Assembly: GCA_019239975.1 (NCBI GenBank)
Contig: JAFAZE010000167.1
Span: forward strand, 1 to 64,000
Direction: 5' to 3'
DNA length: 64,000 bases
From: Streptosporangiaceae bacterium
GTDB lineage: Bacteria > Actinomycetota > Actinomycetes > Streptosporangiales > Streptosporangiaceae
The notes beneath the pieces are model-generated. The model did not search any database, was not told the DNA's origin, and saw only the letters and a program-made list of their open reading frames with translations. Position 1 is the stretch's first letter, and each line of letters starts with the position of its first letter. Made by a program: the position numbers and the translations under genes. Below are positions 28,193 through 62,856 of the stretch, piece by piece.

Positions 28193-29016
28193 TGGCCCAG
28201 GCCATGGCATTCCCCCGGAGAGGGGCCGTCCCCGGGGAACTGGCACTGGCACTGGCACTGCGCGGCTTCCGGTGCTGGCTGACCGTGTACCGGCGGACCT
28301 GGCGGTCCAATGTCTTTTCCAGCGTGCTCGGCCCGGCGTTCTACCTCGGCGCGATGGGGTTCGGGCTCGGTTCCCTGGTGGACGCGCACGGCACGGCGAG
28401 CCTTGGCGGCGTAAGTTACCTGGACTTCGTCGCGCCCGCGATCCTCGCCTTCGGCGCGATGAACACCGGGATGGGGCAGGCGAGCTTCCCGGTGTTCGGC
28501 TCGATCAAGTGGAACAAGATCTATATCGCGGCGCAGGCGTCGCCGCTGCGGCCCGCCGACATCTTCCGTGGCCACCTGGCATTCATGGTCATGCGGATAA
28601 CGATGAACGCGGCGGTGTTCCTGTGCGTCATGGCGGCGTTCGGCGCCGTCCGGTCGGCCTGGGCGGTGCTCGCGCTGCCCGCCGCCGTGCTCACCGGGCT
28701 GGCGTTCGCGGCGCCCGTCGCGGCCTGGGCGGTGACGCTCAAGCAGGAGATGGGGTTCATCTACATGTTCCGGTTCGGCATGATCCCGCTGATGCTGTTC
28801 TCCGGGACGTTCTTCCCGCTGTCACAGCTGCCCGGATGGCTGCGCCTGGCCGCCTACGCCACGCCGCTGTGGCATGGCGTGGCGCTGTGCCGCGGGTTCA
28901 GCCTGGGCACAGCAACGGCCGGCGGGTCACTGCTGCACGTCGCCTACCTGGCAGCTCTCGCCGCGGTGGGCATCGTGATCGGCGCCCGCACCTATCGCAG
29001 GCGGCTTTATGTCTAG
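28192..29016 (+). CDS. ABC-2 type transporter permease 1
   Basis: A 274-residue permease with six predicted helices: VFSSVLGPAFYLGAMGFGLG, YLDFVAPAILAFGAMNTGMG, AVFLCVMAAFGAVRSAWAVL, LPAAVLTGLAFAAPVAAWAV, FRFGMIPLMLFSGTFFPLSQ and a final VAYLAALAAVGIVIGARTYR. The GTFFPLSQLPGWLR signature matches DrrB/NodJ-type ABC-2 permeases. Codons 16-21 contain a small LALALAL repeat (CTGGCA triplicate). Coupled to the ATPase gene; separated from permease 2 by a 27-base-repeat array. Confidence 0.94.
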   Translation: MAQAMAFPRRGAVPGELALALALRGFRCWLTVYRRTWRSNVFSSVLGPAFYLGAMGFGLGSLVDAHGTASLGGVSYLDFVAPAILAFGAMNTGMGQASFPVFGSIKWNKIYIAAQASPLRPADIFRGHLAFMVMRITMNAAVFLCVMAAFGAVRSAWAVLALPAAVLTGLAFAAPVAAWAVTLKQEMGFIYMFRFGMIPLMLFSGTFFPLSQLPGWLRLAAYATPLWHGVALCRGFSLGTATAGGSLLHVAYLAALAAVGIVIGARTYRRRLYV

Positions 29017-29023
29017 GGCCACC

Positions 29024-29205
29024 CACCCCGCGCAACGTGCGGGGGCCGCTCGCCCCGCGCAACGTGCGGGGGCCGCTCGCCCCGCGCAACTCCCGGGGGC
29101 TGCTCACTCCGCGCAACGTGCGGGGGCCGCTCGCCCCGCGCAACGTGCGGGGGCCGCTCGCCCCGCGCAACTCCCGAGGGCCACCCACCCCATGCCAGTA
29201 GCGCC
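29024..29205. repeat. 27-base tandem repeat array, with 81-base higher-order unit, between two permease genes
   Basis: About six and a half head-to-tail 27-base units of type GGCCGCTCGCCCCGCGCAAC plus GTGCGGG fill the gap between the permeases. Every third unit carries CTCCCGG in place of GTGCGGG, giving a duplicated 81-base A-A-B block. Each A unit contains CCGC...GCGG, able to form a small hairpin. All six phases stay largely open because 27 is divisible by three, so the peptides are not evidence of a gene. There are no spacers, so it is not a CRISPR. Confidence 0.9.
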
Positions 29206-30060: not shown

Positions 30061-30341
30061 GCGTCGTCCCCCCTCTCAGCCGCCGCCCGCGTCCGTTCAC
30101 ATGCCACCGCGCCTTCCTTCTCGCCGCGCCTTCCTTCTCGCCGCGCCTTCCCTCTCACGGCGCTTCCCTCTCACGGCGCTTCCCTCTCACGGTGCTTCCC
30201 TCTCACCACGCCTTCCTCCGCCGCGCTTCCTCCGCCGCGTCTTCCCTCTCACGGCGCTTTCCTCTCACCATGTCTTTCCTCCCGCCGCGTCTTTCCTCCC
30301 GCCCCCACCTTCCCCGCCCGTGACCTCTCCGCCCTGGGGCC
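30061..30341. repeat. Pyrimidine-rich short-repeat tract
   Basis: Between about 30105 and 30310 the + strand is almost all C and T, made of degenerate units such as CTTCCCTCTCACGGCG and CTTCCTTCTCGCCGCG, 14-18 bases each. There is no gene in this gap. Strong strand asymmetry of this kind could favour triplex or polymerase pausing; that is inference. Confidence 0.7.
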
Positions 30342-34875: not shown

Positions 34876-35485
34876 TACAGCGCCCTCCCGGCCTCATTAT
34901 CTACACATGCCCGTCAGAACATCAACGTTTTGTAGAACCAGGCTCCACCCACGCCTCCAGCGCCCCGGCACACCACCTCCGGCGGGCTAGCACGCCGCCT
35001 CCGGCGCGCTAGCCCATGATCCCGGAAACGCCGGGTCGCGTACAGTGCGCCTATAAACCCTAACTTTCCACTAAACCGTTCGCTGCTTGCCCGTCGTGGA
35101 AACTAGGGGTCGAATACGGCACCTAAACTTCCACCACCCGGTTCGCGGTCGCCACATCGTGGAAACCGCGGGCCACATAGGGGCGCGCTCACGCCACTCC
35201 AGCATCACAAGCTCAGTCGGTGGAGGCGTCCACGGGCGGCCGCGGCTGTCCGGGGCGGATGTCCGTTACTGGGTTCAGCCGGTGGGGGCGCCGGCCGTCA
35301 CAGGGCTCAGCCGTCCGGGGCGGAGGTCCGTTACTGGGTTCAGCCGGTGGGGGGGCCGGCCGTCGCCGGGCCCAGCCGGTGGGGCCGTCCATCGGCGGTC
35401 GCGGCTGTCCGGGCGGACGTCCATCACTGGGCTCAGCCGGTGGGGGCGCCGGCCGTCGCCGGGCCCAGCCGGCGGCCCCCGGCCG
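34876..35485. repeat. Gene-free region with hairpin duplicates and GC-rich direct repeats
   Basis: I see no gene in these 610 bases. At about 35060-35165 there are two similar units about 65 bases apart, each with TTCCAC...GTGGAA arms (AACTTTCCACTAAACCGTTC and AACTTCCACCACCCGGTTC). GAATACGGCACCT lies between them and recurs at 61698-61710 beside another inverted repeat. From about 35220 to 35480 an imperfect direct repeat built on CAGCCGGTGGGGGCGCCGGCCGTC recurs about four times and continues to the 3' end of the GntR gene. Confidence 0.65.
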
Positions 35486-35743
35486 TCAACGGGCTCGGCT
35501 GCCGGGGCCGACGACGAAGGGGCCGCGTCCGGGGACCATCTTGACGAGCCCCTCGTCCCGCAGCCGGTTGAAGGCCTTCTTCGTCGTTTCCCGCGCCAGC
35601 CCGGACTCCTCCTGGATCGTCCGCGCCGATGGCAGCCTGGTGTGGGGCGCCCATGTGCCGTCGTGGATGCCCGCGAGCAGGATGTTGTAGAGCTGAATCC
35701 AGACCGGTATGTCGCTTTCGTGGTCGATTGACGCGAAGGCCAT
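35486..35743 (-). CDS. Small GntR-type winged-helix regulator
   Basis: An 85-residue protein that is only a GntR DNA-binding domain: DIPVWIQLYNILLAGIHDGT, LPSARTIQEESGLARETTKK, AFNRLRDEGLVKMVPGRGPF. No effector domain follows. ATG 35743 (MAFASIDHESDIPVW) is the family-like start; the frame continues 13 codons further. Such single-domain members occur near integrative elements and antibiotic clusters, but no partner gene is obvious here. It is divergent from the hypothetical protein at 35837 across a palindrome-bearing gap. Confidence 0.85.
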   Translation of the reverse strand: MAFASIDHESDIPVWIQLYNILLAGIHDGTWAPHTRLPSARTIQEESGLARETTKKAFNRLRDEGLVKMVPGRGPFVVGPGSRAR

Positions 35744-35836: not shown

Positions 35837-36340
35837 TTGGGCGGTGTGCGAGGAAAGCGGGCATTTGGCCGGCCGGTACGGTGGAGGCGCCTGCGGGCCG
35901 GTACAGCCGGCGGCGCGGCCCCGGCCGGCAGAGTCAGCGGCACGGCTTCGACCGGTGCGCCCAAAGCCGAACAGCGATGCATCTACCTGTGGATGATCCA
36001 GCCCACAGAGGGGGATGGTGGCGTTCCCGGCTTGGTCGGCATCTCGGGCGACCGGCGGTCCGCCGAGGACACGGTGTTCGGCTTACTCTGGCACAGCAAG
36101 GCGCGCACGGCGCTGATCTTCGAGGTGCGCTGCGACTCCGCCCCCTGGCCAGGCCGCTACCGGGGCACCGGCCGTCAGTGGCTGGCGGTGCGGGACGCGG
36201 AAAGCACCGCCTGGATGATCGCGCTGCCGATGACCCCGCGCCGCTCCCGGCTTCCCAGCACGCCCGGGCATCCCAACCCCGGCAGTTTCGTCTACCCGTC
36301 CTGGTTCCCCGGCCCACCCGGCTTCCCCGGCGTCTCCTGA
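35837..36340 (+). CDS. Hypothetical protein
   Basis: A 167-residue protein of unknown function. The first 45 residues are basic and low-complexity. The middle looks like a compact alpha/beta domain (CIYLWMIQPTEGDGGVPGLV, TVFGLLWHSKARTALIFEVR, GRQWLAVRDAESTAWMIALP), and the tail is Pro/Gly-rich (FPGPPGFPGVS). Codon third positions are strongly G/C, supporting coding in the middle. A later start near CIYLW is possible. No signal peptide or known motif was found. Confidence 0.5.
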   Translation: MGGVRGKRAFGRPVRWRRLRAGTAGGAAPAGRVSGTASTGAPKAEQRCIYLWMIQPTEGDGGVPGLVGISGDRRSAEDTVFGLLWHSKARTALIFEVRCDSAPWPGRYRGTGRQWLAVRDAESTAWMIALPMTPRRSRLPSTPGHPNPGSFVYPSWFPGPPGFPGVS

Positions 36341-36345
36341 ATCAC

Positions 36346-36570
36346 CGGCCGTTCCTCGTTTCCGGCCGTTCCTGGCTCTCGGGCCGCTCCCCCTTCTCCG
36401 GCCGTTCCCGGCTCTCGGGCCGTTCCCCGTTTTCCGGCCGTTCCCGGCTCTCGGGCCGCTCCCCGTTTTCCGGCCGTTCCTGGCTCGCGGGCCGCTCCCC
36501 CTTCTCCGGCCGCTCCCCGTTCTCCGCCGTCTCTATGGTTTCCGGCCGTTCCCATTCCGCCGGCCGCTCC
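36346..36570. repeat. 36-base tandem repeat array
   Basis: At least four near-identical 36-base units start at 36361, 36397, 36433 and 36469 (unit opens TCCGGCCGTTCC and contains GGGCCGCTCCCC), with decayed half-units on both sides. Each unit is itself two related 18-base halves. The minus strand keeps a 109-codon frame at 36342-36671 rich in ERPENGERPESR repeats, but with no independent support as a gene. It fills much of the gap before the acyl-CoA dehydrogenase operon. Confidence 0.85.
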
Positions 36571-52532: not shown

Positions 52533-53759
52533 TCACGTCTCGCTGACCTGGCCGGAGATATGGCAGCCGCAGCTTTCCCGGCACATCAGGCGGGCGGGAA
52601 GCACCACGTCGCGTTCGGCTGGCCGCTCGTGGTTGATCATGGAGTAGAGCACCTCGAAAGCGGTCTCGCCGAGCTCACCGATCGGCTGCCTGACGGTGGT
52701 GAGCTGCGGGTGCAGGTGCCGCGCCATCGGGATGTCGTCGAAGCCGGTGACGGCGACCTCGCCGGGCACGTCGACCCCGCGCCGGCGCAGCGCGTACATG
52801 ACGCCGAGCGCCGTCTGGTCGTTCGCGCACACGATGACCCTCGGCAGCGTGGTACCGCTGGCCAGCAGCCGTTCGGTGACCGCCGCGCCGCCGGCCGCGT
52901 AGTAGTTGCCCTGCCACTGCGGGCCGGAATGCAGGACCGCGCCCGCGCGGGCCACCTCGGCCTCGAGCGCCTCATGCCGTGCCAGGCTGTCCGGGCTGTC
53001 GCCGTAACCTCCGAGATAGCCGAGGGTCCGGTAGCCGTGGTCGCGCAGCAGGTGCCTGGCCAGCGCGACCATGCCGGCCCGGTTGTCGCTGTGGACGTTC
53101 GCGGTGGTCTCCGACGCGATGCCCGCCAGCGTGACGACCGGCACCTGACGGGACAGCCGCTGCAGATGGTGCGGATCAAGCACCCGGTCGTGCAGGATCA
53201 GGCCGTCGCTCTTCCGGGCGAGGGCGACGATCCGCTGGCCGGGATCGTGGTCGTCGACGTCGACCGTGCGCACCAGCAGGTCGAAGCCCCGGCGCTGGGC
53301 CGCGCGCTCGATACCCCGGTTGAGCATGTCGGGGAACTGCAGGCTCTCCGCCTCGTCCGCGAAGGCGCCGTCGTCGCCGTCCGGCGCGCCCGCGGGGACG
53401 AGGGGCCGCCGGACGATCACCCCGACGGTCTCCTTCAGCCTGGCGCTCAGCGCGCGGGCTGCCCCGTCCGGGGCGAAGCCGAGCTCGGAGACCGCGCGAA
53501 GCACCCGGTCCCTGGTCTCCGGCCGCGGGTTGCGCCGCCCGTTGAGCACCCGGGAAACCGACGCGATCGAGACCCCGGCCACCCGCGCCACGTCATAGAT
53601 CGTCGGCGCGCTCCCGCCGTCAGCGCTTGCGCCGACAGCGCTTGCGCCGTCAGCGGTCCCGCCGTCAGGCACGCCGCCGTCAGCGATGCCATTGCCAGGC
53701 ACGCCGCCGTCAGCCGGGCTGCCGCCAGCCGTCTGCCCGCCGTCCACCGGGACCGCCAC
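52533..53759 (-). CDS. LacI-family transcriptional regulator
   Basis: A 408-residue repressor. The HTH is at about residues 52-100: APTIYDVARVAGVSIASVSR, VLNGRRNPRPETRDRVLRAV, with hinge FAPDGAARALSARLKETVGV. The periplasmic-binding-like sensor follows (GFDLLVRTVDVDDHDPGQRI, NRAGMVALARHLLRDHGYRT, VIVCANDQTALGVMYALRRR, VAVTGFDDIPMARHLHPQLT). A 50-residue Gly/Ala/Asp leader (GGVPDGGTADGASAVGASAD) precedes the HTH, which normally sits at the very start; a later start is possible but no obvious Met precedes the HTH. Two palindromic sites lie just upstream, so it probably autoregulates and controls the transporter-GH3 operon. Confidence 0.95.
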   Translation of the reverse strand: MAVPVDGGQTAGGSPADGGVPGNGIADGGVPDGGTADGASAVGASADGGSAPTIYDVARVAGVSIASVSRVLNGRRNPRPETRDRVLRAVSELGFAPDGAARALSARLKETVGVIVRRPLVPAGAPDGDDGAFADEAESLQFPDMLNRGIERAAQRRGFDLLVRTVDVDDHDPGQRIVALARKSDGLILHDRVLDPHHLQRLSRQVPVVTLAGIASETTANVHSDNRAGMVALARHLLRDHGYRTLGYLGGYGDSPDSLARHEALEAEVARAGAVLHSGPQWQGNYYAAGGAAVTERLLASGTTLPRVIVCANDQTALGVMYALRRRGVDVPGEVAVTGFDDIPMARHLHPQLTTVRQPIGELGETAFEVLYSMINHERPAERDVVLPARLMCRESCGCHISGQVSET

Positions 53760-55742: not shown

Positions 55743-57818
55743 TCAGTGGCCGCGGAAGGCCTCCTCGAGCCACCACGCGCCGCGGTCCGAGGTGACCTTG
55801 GCGTCGATGAGCAGCGGCCTGGCCCGCGGCCCGCCCAGCCAGGATCGCACCGCCTCTAGGTCGGCGGCCTTTCGCACGGTCACCCCCTCGCAGCCGAAGC
55901 CGCTGCCGATGGCCGCGATGTCGGTGGCCGGGAACCGGACCGTGTCGAGCGGGTCGCCGTCGGGCCCGAAATGATGCACCTCCGCCCCGTACGCCGCGTC
56001 GTCGTACACCACGATGACCATCGGCAGGCCCAGCCGGACCACCGTCTCCAGTTCGGCGATGCCCATCAGCGCGCCGCCGTCGCCCAGCGCCGCCACGGTC
56101 AGCCGGCCGGGCCGCGCGATCGCGGCCCCGATGGCGGACGCAAGGCCGAGCCCGATGGACTGGAACGCCTGGGTGAAGCAGAAGCCCGCCTCATCAGGCA
56201 CTGAAAGGTACATCGACGGGTAACCCATGAAGTTACCCGAGTCGATCGCCACCGTCCGTTCGGCAGGAAAAAGATCGTCAAGCGCCCGCGACAGGGTGCG
56301 CGGATCGATGCGGTCCCCGCCGCTGGAGTCCGCATAGGGCACGTCCCGCCACCGCACCTCCCGTGCGATCCGCTCCCGCAGCTCACCCGACCGGTATCCC
56401 ACAGTATCCCCAGCGCCTGTGGTATCCCCAGCCGCCGCAGTATCTCCAGCCCCCGCCGCATCCCTCGTCCTCGCCGTATCCGCGGTCCCGGTCCCCGCCG
56501 CATCCCTCGTCCCCCCCGCATCCCCGGTCCCTGCCGTATCCCCAGTCCTCGCCGTATCTCCCGTCCCCGCCGCATCCCTCGTCCTCGCCGTATCTCCGGT
56601 CCCCGCCGTATCCCCGGTCCCCGCCGTATCCCCGGTCCCTGCCGTATCCCCGGTCCCTGCCGTATCCCCGCTCCCTGCCGTATCCCCGGTCCCTGCCGTA
56701 TCCCCCGTCCTCGCCGTATCCCCGGTCCCTGCCGTAGCCTGCCGCTCGCCGTCATGGTTATTCCGAACGGACGGTGGCTCCCCGACCAGGGCATGAACGT
56801 GCCCGTGAGCCGGCTGGGGGCGGCCCGGCGCCACATCCAGGCCCCCGGCGAGTTCCCGGATAACCGCCAGCGCCGTCAGCGCGACGTCGCCGTGGACGCC
56901 AAGCTGCACCGGGCGGTGCGCTCCGATCGCGGCCGGATCGTCGTCCACCTGCGCGACCGCGGCGTCCGGCCCGATCAGCGTGCCGTGCCGCGTCGTCCAC
57001 ATGTTCAGCGAACAGCCCCAGGCCACGATGATGTCCGCGTTCCTGATCAGTTCCGCCGCGAGCGGTGAGGCGAAGCCGCCGCTCACATCGAGGTCCCACG
57101 GGCTGCCGCGGAACAGCCCCTTCGCCGCGGCCGAGGTCGCCAGCAGCGCACCGCACCCGTCGGCCAGCCCCTCCAGCGCAGCCCGCGCCACACCGCTGGA
57201 GCCGCTCCAGCGGGCGCCCCGGCCGGCGATGAATACCGGCCGGCGGCCGGCGCGCAGCAGCCCGGCAAGCGCCTTGACCGCCTGTGGTTCCGGCTCGGTT
57301 GGCGGCGTTCGCCGCACCGCGGGAACACCGGCGTCGGGGCTGGCGGCCGCCTGCACGTCAAGCGGCAGGCTCAGCACCACCGTCCGCCGCGCCAGCGCCC
57401 TCTCGTAGGCGCGATGCGCGTCGGCGAGCGCCGAAGCGGGGGAGCGCAGCCGCTCGTGCTCCGCGCCAACGGCAGCCGCGAGGCCGGCCACGCCGATGTG
57501 GAAGTTGGATAGCCGGCCCGGGGCCTCCGCCGCCAGCACGAGCAGCGGCGTGCGGCTCTTCGCGGCCTCGGCGATGCCCGTCAGCGCGTTGGTCAGCCCC
57601 GGGCCCTGATGCACGGAAACGACGCCGGGCCGTCCCGCGGTCCGGGCCCACGCGTCCGCCATCACCGCGGCCCCGCACTCGTGCCGCGCCGCGATGAACC
57701 GCGCCCCGCCTGCGATCAGGCCGTTCGTGACGTGGAAATTGCCGCTGCCGACCACGCCGAACACGGTGTTCGCGCCGAGGCCCGCCAGCATCCGCCCGAC
57801 GGCGTCCGCCACCCGCAT
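55743..57818 (-). CDS. Thiamine-diphosphate-dependent enzyme (acetolactate synthase/benzoylformate decarboxylase-like) with repeat insertion
   Basis: A 691-residue ThDP enzyme. The PYR domain has the catalytic Glu in FIAARHECGAAVMADAWART and GPGLTNALTGIAEAAKSRTP. The middle domain follows (ADIIVAWGCSLNMWTTRHGT). The PP domain has the ThDP motif ALGDGGALMGIAELETVVRL (GDG, with the later residues degenerate: ...VIVVYDDAAYGAEVH). Between residues about 355 and 475, roughly 19 copies of a six-residue unit (GDTAGT) from 18-base repeats separate the middle and PP domains. Without them the length is about 570, normal for the family. It starts 3 bases after the cyclase-family gene stop, so both belong to one operon. 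The substrate is unknown. Confidence 0.88.
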   Translation of the reverse strand: MRVADAVGRMLAGLGANTVFGVVGSGNFHVTNGLIAGGARFIAARHECGAAVMADAWARTAGRPGVVSVHQGPGLTNALTGIAEAAKSRTPLLVLAAEAPGRLSNFHIGVAGLAAAVGAEHERLRSPASALADAHRAYERALARRTVVLSLPLDVQAAASPDAGVPAVRRTPPTEPEPQAVKALAGLLRAGRRPVFIAGRGARWSGSSGVARAALEGLADGCGALLATSAAAKGLFRGSPWDLDVSGGFASPLAAELIRNADIIVAWGCSLNMWTTRHGTLIGPDAAVAQVDDDPAAIGAHRPVQLGVHGDVALTALAVIRELAGGLDVAPGRPQPAHGHVHALVGEPPSVRNNHDGERQATAGTGDTARTGDTAGTGDTAGSGDTAGTGDTAGTGDTAGTGDTAGTGDTARTRDAAGTGDTARTGDTAGTGDAGGTRDAAGTGTADTARTRDAAGAGDTAAAGDTTGAGDTVGYRSGELRERIAREVRWRDVPYADSSGGDRIDPRTLSRALDDLFPAERTVAIDSGNFMGYPSMYLSVPDEAGFCFTQAFQSIGLGLASAIGAAIARPGRLTVAALGDGGALMGIAELETVVRLGLPMVIVVYDDAAYGAEVHHFGPDGDPLDTVRFPATDIAAIGSGFGCEGVTVRKAADLEAVRSWLGGPRARPLLIDAKVTSDRGAWWLEEAFRGH
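56400..56742. repeat. 18-base tandem repeat array inside the ThDP-enzyme gene
   Basis: About nineteen units of the type GTATCCCCGGTCCCTGCC run without spacers. On the minus strand they read GDTAGT, with variants such as RDAAGT. The most uniform copies lie at about 56590-56700. The frame is never broken. Adjacent identical units suggest slippage or unequal exchange. Confidence 0.95.
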
Positions 57819-57821
57819 CGG

Positions 57822-58598
57822 TCAGGCGTGTTCGACCAGTGCCAGCGCTCGGCACGGGGACCCGGAGCCGCTGACGATCGGCAGCGGCCCGGCGATCACG
57901 ACGGCGCCCTGGTCCGGCAGCCTCGCCAGGTTCCGCAACTGTGTCAGGCCGTACTTGCCGGCGCCGAGCAGCGCCGAATGGCATGGAAACGGCGGGTCGA
58001 ACGAGTGTGCCGCGCCAGCGTCGGTGCCCACGGTCTCCACGCCGATGCCGGTCACCGGCGCCTCGGCCGCCAGCCAGCGCGCGCACTCGACGCTGACACC
58101 GGGCGTATGCGGGCCGCTGGCGTCGGCGTTCAGGAACTCGGCCTGATCGTTGGAGCGCGCGTCCCAGCCGGTGCGGTACAGCAGCCACCCGCCGTCAGGG
58201 AGCGGCCCGTGATCGGCTTCCCACTGCTTGATGTGGCCGATCTCCAGGAGGAAGTCCGGGTCTTCGGCCGCCTGCGCGGTGAAGTCCAGGACCGCGGCGG
58301 GGGCGATCAGCTTGGTCACCGGCACCTGCGAGACATCCTCGCCGCCGGCGCCGGTCACCCAGTGCACCGGCGCGTCGAAGTGAGTGCCGGTGTGCTCACC
58401 CGTGGTGATGTCGTTCCAGTACCAGGCGGGCCCTCGCTCGTCGTACCGGCTGATCTCGCTCAGCGAGAACCGCGCCGTGTTGCCAAACGGCTCTGGCAGC
58501 GCGATCACAGGAGTCTGCGACGTCAGCGGCGCGGTGAGGTCGATCACCTCGACCGACCCGTCACGTACGGCAGCGGTCAGGGCCGTCAGCACGGACAT
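57822..58598 (-). CDS. Cyclase family protein (kynurenine-formamidase-like metal hydrolase)
   Basis: A 258-residue protein of the COG1878 cyclase/formamidase family. The hallmark metal motif HTGTHFDAPVHW is at about residue 69, preceded by VEVIDLTAPLTSQTPVIALP. Later family segments are VPVTKLIAPAAVLDFT, GGWLLYRTGWDARSNDQAEF, PGVSVECARWLAAEAPVTGI and ETVGTDAGAAHSFDPPFPCH. It probably hydrolyses an amide, lactone or thioester-like bond. It lies immediately upstream of the ThDP enzyme on the same strand, so the two may act in succession on a 2-oxo acid pathway; this is inference. Confidence 0.92.
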   Translation of the reverse strand: MSVLTALTAAVRDGSVEVIDLTAPLTSQTPVIALPEPFGNTARFSLSEISRYDERGPAWYWNDITTGEHTGTHFDAPVHWVTGAGGEDVSQVPVTKLIAPAAVLDFTAQAAEDPDFLLEIGHIKQWEADHGPLPDGGWLLYRTGWDARSNDQAEFLNADASGPHTPGVSVECARWLAAEAPVTGIGVETVGTDAGAAHSFDPPFPCHSALLGAGKYGLTQLRNLARLPDQGAVVIAGPLPIVSGSGSPCRALALVEHA

Positions 58599-61530: not shown

Positions 61531-62856
61531 TCACGGCCGGCGTACGCGTGGTCCGGCGTGCGCGCGGGACGCGCCGCGCCGCCGGGTGTGTGAATTGTCC
61601 CCATTCGTCCGGTTCCTGCAGCCGTCAGCGCTGCGGCCGCGCTTCCTGTTATCCGGGCAAAAGGGGCGGCCGCCATGATCCCGGAATCCGCGGGCCGAAT
61701 ACGGCACCTTTGTTTCCGCGATCACGGGGTGTGGTGCTGATGTGGCGGAGGGGGCGGGCGCCGGCCGCTGCTTGCGAGGCTGGCGTTGCTGTCGCGGCTG
61801 ATGTTGCTGTGGTGAGAGCGGCCGGGCCGCCCGGCGGTCACCCAGCCCGGGGCAACGGCGCCCGGCGGGCGCCGCAGCCGCACCGCAGCCCGTTACGTCC
61901 CAGAGCCGCGCGCCGCGGCCCGTCACGTCCCAGAGCCGCGCGCCGCGGCCCGTTACGTCCCAGAGCCGCGCGCCGCAGCCCGTCACGTCCCAGTTTCGCG
62001 CCAGACCCCGGAAAGTGAGCCGCGATCGCGGCTCACTCCGCGCTACCCCGCAACCAGCGGCGGCGACCACCGCACAATCGCGCGATAACGCGACGTTGAG
62101 GCCGAAGGCGGCGAACATGATGTCCGCGATCCGGTCCGCCATCTCGTCCTCGGGCAGCCGGACCTCGGCGCTGATGAGGTAATTCACCCTCTCCAGCATC
62201 ATCAGGCAGGCCATCGCGGTCAGCTCCGCGTGCTCCTGGTGCCGCCCGGCGCTTTGGGCTGCCGCGGTCATCCCCGTCGTCATGGCTTCGGCGATGCTGA
62301 AGAACAGCCGCAGGGCGTCACCGTAAACTTCCTCGGGCACGAGGTCGGCCGAGCTGAGGACACGGAGCACGGTGCCGTGCGCGGCGTAGGCGGCGAAGAA
62401 CTTCCGCACCCACTGACGCAGCATGACGAGGCTGGCCTCGTCGTTCGTGACGACCGGGAAGTCGCCGGCGACGATCTCCATGTCGTGCAGCGCGTCCCGC
62501 AGGAGCGCCTTGAACAGGTCCTCCTTGTTCGAGAAATACAGATAGAACGTGCCGTGCGAGATGCCCGCCCGGCGCACCACGTCATCGACGCGGACGCCTT
62601 GAAAGCCCCGGTCTTCGAACTCGATCATGCCGGCCTCGAGAAGCTTGCGCACGGTCTCGCGGCCCTGCGCCCGCAGTTCGCGGTCCTGGGCCGGGACGCC
62701 GCCGCCGAGCGACGGGCGCGCCTGCGGTTTTCGCGCCGGGCGCCCCGTCCCGCGTCGCTGGCTGGCGGCGCGCGGCGCGGCGGGCTGCCGAGAAGCGTGT
62801 CCCCGGCCCGCGCCGGAGCCGCCGGGCACGCGACTCTGGTCTGCCTCCTGGGTCAT
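61531..62856 (-). CDS. TetR-family regulator with long repeat-bearing C-terminal extension
   Basis: The regulator begins at ATG 62856 (MTQEADQSRVPGGSGAG), has a basic Pro/Arg leader of about 60 residues, then the TetR HTH: LLEAGMIEFEDRGFQGVRVD, DVVRRAGISHGTFYLYFSNK, EDLFKALLRDALHDMEIVAG, and an all-helical ligand domain ending near FGLNVALSRDCAVV (about 62080). Normal TetR proteins stop there. Here the frame continues about 180 codons through palindromes and 30-base repeats (RGARLWDVTG repeated) to 61531. The tail is unlike any domain I know and may be absent from the functional protein, for instance if a stop was lost by an indel. The ligand is unknown. Confidence 0.8.
   Translation of the reverse strand: MTQEADQSRVPGGSGAGRGHASRQPAAPRAASQRRGTGRPARKPQARPSLGGGVPAQDRELRAQGRETVRKLLEAGMIEFEDRGFQGVRVDDVVRRAGISHGTFYLYFSNKEDLFKALLRDALHDMEIVAGDFPVVTNDEASLVMLRQWVRKFFAAYAAHGTVLRVLSSADLVPEEVYGDALRLFFSIAEAMTTGMTAAAQSAGRHQEHAELTAMACLMMLERVNYLISAEVRLPEDEMADRIADIMFAAFGLNVALSRDCAVVAAAGCGVARSEPRSRLTFRGLARNWDVTGCGARLWDVTGRGARLWDVTGRGARLWDVTGCGAAAAPAGRRCPGLGDRRAARPLSPQQHQPRQQRQPRKQRPAPAPSATSAPHPVIAETKVPYSARGFRDHGGRPFCPDNRKRGRSADGCRNRTNGDNSHTRRRGASRAHAGPRVRRP
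61888..61993. repeat. 30-base tandem repeats in the TetR tail
   Basis: Three full units (61888, 61918, 61948) and a partial fourth of GCCCGTTACGTCCCAGAGCC plus GCGCGCCGCG. They differ mainly by T/C at one position and encode RGARLWDVTG on the minus strand. Confidence 0.92.
62014..62037. repeat. Perfect 24-base palindrome
   Basis: AGTGAGCCGCGATCGCG followed by GCTCACT is fully self-complementary over 24 bases. It lies just downstream of the end of the recognisable TetR fold. It could be a regulator site or, as RNA, a terminator hairpin with a minimal loop. Confidence 0.75.

Follow-up and report, generated by a model that had tools for sequence, protein, structure and literature searches.

Short tandem units that lie inside an open reading frame, keep that frame and encode a low-complexity peptide have been described in tolA of E. 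coli and in the pe_pgrs/ppe VNTRs of M. tuberculosis (PMC3477136, PMC12817950), and the array analysed here is built likewise. For the M. tuberculosis repeats the authors argue for mechanism over selection (PMC12817950); therefore, frame retention alone is no proof of selection at our locus. Our literature searches on repeat-bearing ThDP linkers and on Frankia and Streptomyces repeats returned nothing relevant apart from these two papers. Among the ThDP-dependent enzymes, acetolactate synthase (ALS/AHAS), benzaldehyde lyase and 2-hydroxyacyl-CoA lyase have the Pyr-central-PP order in common with the enzyme described below, with Glu47 and the GDG motif kept, and uncharacterised, cyclase-linked actinobacterial ThDP orthologues show 65–78% identity to it in aligned columns.

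The window (the whole stretch of DNA that was analysed, 64,000 nucleotides) contains the gene of a ThDP-dependent enzyme with a long GDTAGT-type hexapeptide array. The array belongs to a known kind, although its setting is unusual: as in other coding minisatellites, its unit is a multiple of 3 within one intact ORF, and it is absent from the relatives in other genera. We regard it as very likely that the array is a lineage-specific, slippage-type, in-frame minisatellite expansion in a tolerant linker, near-neutral apart from the retention of frame.

The host enzyme and its predicted structure

The initial annotation had read the gene as a ThDP enzyme of acetolactate-synthase-like fold with the array between its middle and PP domains, and both readings were borne out. 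Pfam identified the TPP N, M and C domains in ALS-like order, with the array between the second and the third (Table 1). A Foldseek search against the PDB matched benzaldehyde lyase, 2-hydroxyacyl-CoA lyase, ALS and AHAS chains with a TM of ~0.8 by target length, at 15–22% identity to these solved structures (best 8y7s, 8vzi, 8x3x and 9zgl). The catalytic residues, said to remain on both sides, do so: in an alignment of 68 sequences, Glu47, Gly579-Asp580-Gly581 and Asp607 are invariant, and the ThDP/Mg residues are invariant on both sides of the array. This alignment was made without the Phytohabitans suffuscus homologue (L108:4001-5598, +), which has 9 stops in the match-start frame; its broken reading could come from a frameshift or from a mismatch of the listed coordinates.

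Table 1. Features of the array-bearing locus, with positions in the window
Feature	Residues	Position	Strand	Basis
ThDP-dependent enzyme gene, 691 aa, with stop codon		55743..57818	-	ORF and Pfam
Pyr domain PF02776 (N-terminal, ThDP-binding), catalytic Glu47	1-104	57507..57818	-	Pfam and invariant column
Central domain PF00205	181-316	56871..57278	-	Pfam
Non-repetitive N-terminal part of the linker	325-360	56739..56846	-	Linker comparison
GDTAGT-type hexapeptide array, 19 copies of an 18-bp unit	361-474	56397..56738	-	TRF and codon-by-codon units
Most homogeneous copies	372-407	56598..56705	-	Pairwise differences between copies
PP domain PF02775 (C-terminal), GDG motif 579-581, Asp607	528-657	55848..56237	-	Pfam and invariant columns
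Putative cyclase PF04199, directly upstream of the enzyme gene		57822..58598	-	Pfam

Acetolactate synthase proper was rejected as an assignment: the best ALS models scored at most 164 bits against NCBIfam cutoffs of 363–976, and no curated NCBIfam cutoff was reached among the 25 families listed. Judged from its sequence, the enzyme is a fold relative of ALS and not an assigned ALS. The PF04199 cyclase next door is common to the cyclase-linked ThDP orthologues, adjoining the enzyme gene in each of the five relatives that were checked, on the upstream side in four and on the downstream side in the fifth, and the two genes probably form a conserved unit.

AlphaFold2, run with the 68-sequence alignment, gave a pTM of 0.79 and a pLDDT above 90 for most of the enzyme. 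Residues 345–470 had a pLDDT of ~31 and no secondary structure. The array is thus predicted to be disordered, which agrees with the earlier description of it as a flexible linker. A left-handed beta-helix of the transferase hexapeptide type was rejected, as the GDTAGT unit is without a large aliphatic residue, no strands were predicted at this low pLDDT, and the Pfam scan gave no hexapeptide family. Most likely, the enzyme remains folded and active and carries the array as a long loop on its surface.

The array might instead damage the enzyme and be a sign of relaxed selection on a gene that is becoming a pseudogene. In the sequence alignment, 153 residues separate the M part from the PP part, compared with 9 in the ancestral ALS 9zgl, and codon usage within the array is foreign, as would be expected in that case. 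However, the frame is open throughout with all catalytic columns kept, the flanks have normal codon usage and 62–84% identity to the orthologues, and the neighbouring cyclase is intact, which makes decay of the gene highly improbable.

The array and its DNA signature

Where the initial annotation had seen a nineteen-copy hexapeptide array of about 115 residues, our in-frame reading gave 114 aa (342 bp, 19 × 18 bp), with ends that agree within 4 bases. TRF reported a period of 18, 17.2 copies and a score of 317 at 56422-56736. The majority unit, GGGGATACGGCGGGGACC, encodes Gly-Asp-Thr-Ala-Gly-Thr. Unit by unit, we counted 18 full copies, one edge copy and one extra 6-bp piece (Gly-Thr, residues 444–445); all steps are multiples of 3, and the reading frame is unbroken. 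The array is far from chance, because its identity at lag 18 is 0.79, while the maximum in 2000 first-order Markov resamplings was 0.49.

Pairwise, the third to eighth copies are the most similar, and from their sequences they are presumably the youngest. The mean pairwise difference per 18 bases was 2.3 in the N-terminal third, 3.0 in the middle and 6.5 among the C-terminal copies. The latter are the most diverged, and therefore not all of the array is very young; the pattern of homogeneity has no symmetric centre. An earlier claim was that the most similar copies are central, implying recent expansion. A recent, lineage-specific origin stands, since the homologues are without the array, but the peak of similarity belongs to the N-terminal half.

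Short-read assembly could in principle have produced the copy number or even the whole array, as the genome is in 176 contigs and assemblies are known to go wrong at tandem repeats. However, the longest exact repeat inside the array is 34 bp and the copies are mostly distinguishable, and neither collapse nor inflation is forced. The frame is kept on both sides, the contig is 128 kb long with the array far from its ends, and similar arrays of other sequences occur elsewhere in the same genome. We assign an artefact only a very small probability.

Codon usage in the array differs from that of the genome: Asp is GAT in 18/18 cases (12.6% in the genome), Arg is AGG in 7/7 (10.1%), Gly is GGG in 25/30 (24.8%), and Ala is GCC in 0/26 (46.5%). 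The mean codon log-likelihood was −0.28 in the array, and +0.27 and +0.31 in the flanks. GC by codon position was 0.66/0.83/0.68 in the array, and 0.78/0.59/0.90 and 0.72/0.53/0.89 in the flanks. Because this usage is foreign to the genome, the array grew as DNA; a unit that is multiplied at the DNA level shows such a codon pattern until its codon choice has adapted.

When the copies were compared with one another, the ratio of nonsynonymous to synonymous change per site was 0.40 for the true frame, against 1.38 and 5.38 for the two other frames. The ratio in the true frame hints at constraint on the peptide, although the copies are not independent. A functional linker has therefore to be weighed, in which the length or the acidic, Thr-rich composition would be selected for domain spacing, partner binding or oligomer tuning, with copy number under selection and the same DNA origin. 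The favouring of synonymous differences in the true frame only would suit it, as would the composition of the peptide, which stays Gly/Thr/Ala/Asp with a net charge of −11. There is also a precedent, since the in-frame repeat number of E. coli tolA alters stress tolerance (PMC3477136). However, the uniform GAT and the other rare codons indicate little coding adaptation, AlphaFold2 predicts no ordered structure, and two comparisons given below, with the homologues and with the rest of the genome, also speak against selection of this kind, which we judge quite unlikely.

The coding strand of the array is 52% G, and quadruplex-type motifs reach 32 per kb there but are missing from the rest of the gene. 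Across the sampled genome, their density was 13.6 per kb inside arrays versus 0.43 outside. Such motifs are not a general cause of the arrays, because only 42 of 251 contain one. Compared with its own genome, the array DNA had only four weak matches (68–81% over 47–158 bp), all to arrays with other units. Arrays thus seem to arise locally, and a dispersed repeat family or mobile element was rejected on the same matches.

The central-PP linker among homologues

We drew homologues from 60 related genomes and from a GTDB contig scan. All loci are from other genera, and some records are double, as both searches found the same contig. The array was absent from all of the ~110 homologue loci compared, none of which is of the same genus. 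The alignment with homologues lacking the array that had been suggested beforehand is thereby in hand, and the same array in distant genera, the finding that would have counted against a recent origin, was looked for among these loci and not found. An old stable domain was ruled out, as the array is in no homologue. That no homologue needs the array also counts against the functional linker.

Measured between fixed anchors at residues 324 and 473, the central-PP linker of the array-bearing enzyme has 148 residues. The next longest have 68, 34, 34, 27 and 25, and most have 2–20, so that the cyclase-linked orthologues, which are without the array, do not exceed 68. The first 36 of the 148 residues are non-repetitive and likewise have no counterpart in the homologues. 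The linker of 68 residues, in Streptosporangium minutum, contains a duplicated segment of ~21 residues. In the orthologue of Streptosporangium sp. KLBMP 9127 (L058:4001-5893, +), the N-M linker is 110 residues long and consists of tandem repeats.

Domain lengths are nearly constant across the family, and large changes of length are confined to both interdomain linkers. The interdomain junctions therefore tolerate insertion. Given the repeats in the Streptosporangium linkers, repeats of unrelated sequence have expanded on more than one occasion in this family. The array had been called an unusual insertion; this is right in that no homologue has it, but the linker is variable in length family-wide and other small repeats are found in Streptosporangium relatives.

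Tandem arrays across the genome and in known systems

The genome was sampled by stretches totalling 1088 kb, with a TRF score of at least 80 as threshold and gene calls from a simple codon-model caller. We found 251 arrays, or 23.1 per 100 kb. The density was 7.8 per 100 kb among the relatives (20 stretches, 400 kb, 11 relatives) and 16.2 per 100 kb in 314 kb of G012, the nearest relative by the ThDP gene; single relatives ranged from 0 to 25 per 100 kb in small samples. This genome therefore tends towards an excess of arrays, but it is not alone in this. Periods were a multiple of 3 in 89/90 coding arrays and 65/146 noncoding arrays (Fisher 4e-21), a contrast that is partly built in because arrays that break the frame end ORFs and are then counted as noncoding.

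Several of these arrays lie in proteins with other catalytic functions. In a YprA/MrfA-family helicase (L198:10040-12625, −), an in-frame array of ~84 residues, of the AAGPGSCAEPGD type, is found between residues 230 and 314. It lies between the DECH and SATV motifs, at a loop between positions matching YprA 215 and 217; this junction is a short loop in 6/6 relatives read, and match coordinates exclude an insert in two more. A histidine kinase (L225:9500-11164, −) has an 18-bp array of the GDGARS type inside its HATPase domain near the ATP lid, with ~75 extra residues between positions matching 4jas residues 199 and 209.

Arrays were also seen in tails, as at the N-terminus of orotidine phosphate decarboxylase. 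In the window, a tandem repeat (53608-53728) precedes the HTH of a LacI-type regulator, within its N-terminal extension, and a 30-bp array (61879-61993; ten-residue WDVTGRGARL type) lies inside a TetR-like regulator gene. One further ORF (L004, G000:C66; 3-2180, −) has several different hexapeptide arrays, of the YGESQG, NGYAEG and YPEQPA types. Large arrays at 29015-29182, 30105-30298, 35248-35513 and 36299-36570 of the window, with periods such as 27, 16–17, 32 and 36 bp, overlap called genes little or not at all.

Within one genome, unrelated proteins thus carry arrays of unrelated sequence, which again argues against a linker selected for its function in this enzyme. At ~23 arrays per 100 kb, some in frame in other catalytic proteins, the array is no isolated peculiarity of the ThDP enzyme.

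In the preferred reading, that of a near-neutral expansion, an 18-bp GC-rich unit was multiplied in frame at the central-PP linker of an otherwise ordinary ThDP enzyme, which produced a Gly/Thr/Ala/Asp-rich segment of 114 residues; replication slippage or unequal recombination would add and remove copies. Either process may perhaps be helped by the many quadruplex-type motifs of the G-rich coding strand, as a possible helper only. The only survivors would be changes in which the frame is kept and the fold is undisturbed; the array would therefore be tolerated, and not selected for a new function, and it would be tolerated because the length of the interdomain junction is variable. The same expansion process would be acting across the whole genome. 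A broader reading, which we offer tentatively and hold to be rather unlikely, is that in this lineage of soil actinobacteria an unusually active minisatellite process puts long in-frame repeats into the loops of core enzymes (the ThDP enzyme, the YprA-type helicase, the histidine kinase), where they are kept as length-variable, possibly tunable linkers and form a genome-wide source of protein variation.

The junction of two catalytic ThDP domains can accept over 140 additional residues with neither domain visibly damaged, which is useful for the choice of insertion sites. More broadly, minisatellites that keep the frame occur throughout this genome, and several catalytic proteins are interrupted by them at loops. 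Should copy number differ among strains, the lineage would offer a natural test of repeat-driven variation in protein length outside bacterial surface proteins. The tolA and PE/PPE repeats are located in envelope or PE/PPE proteins, whereas the array described here lies at a folded-domain junction of a ThDP enzyme; and while intragenic VNTRs are variable in copy number, this array is known from one genome.
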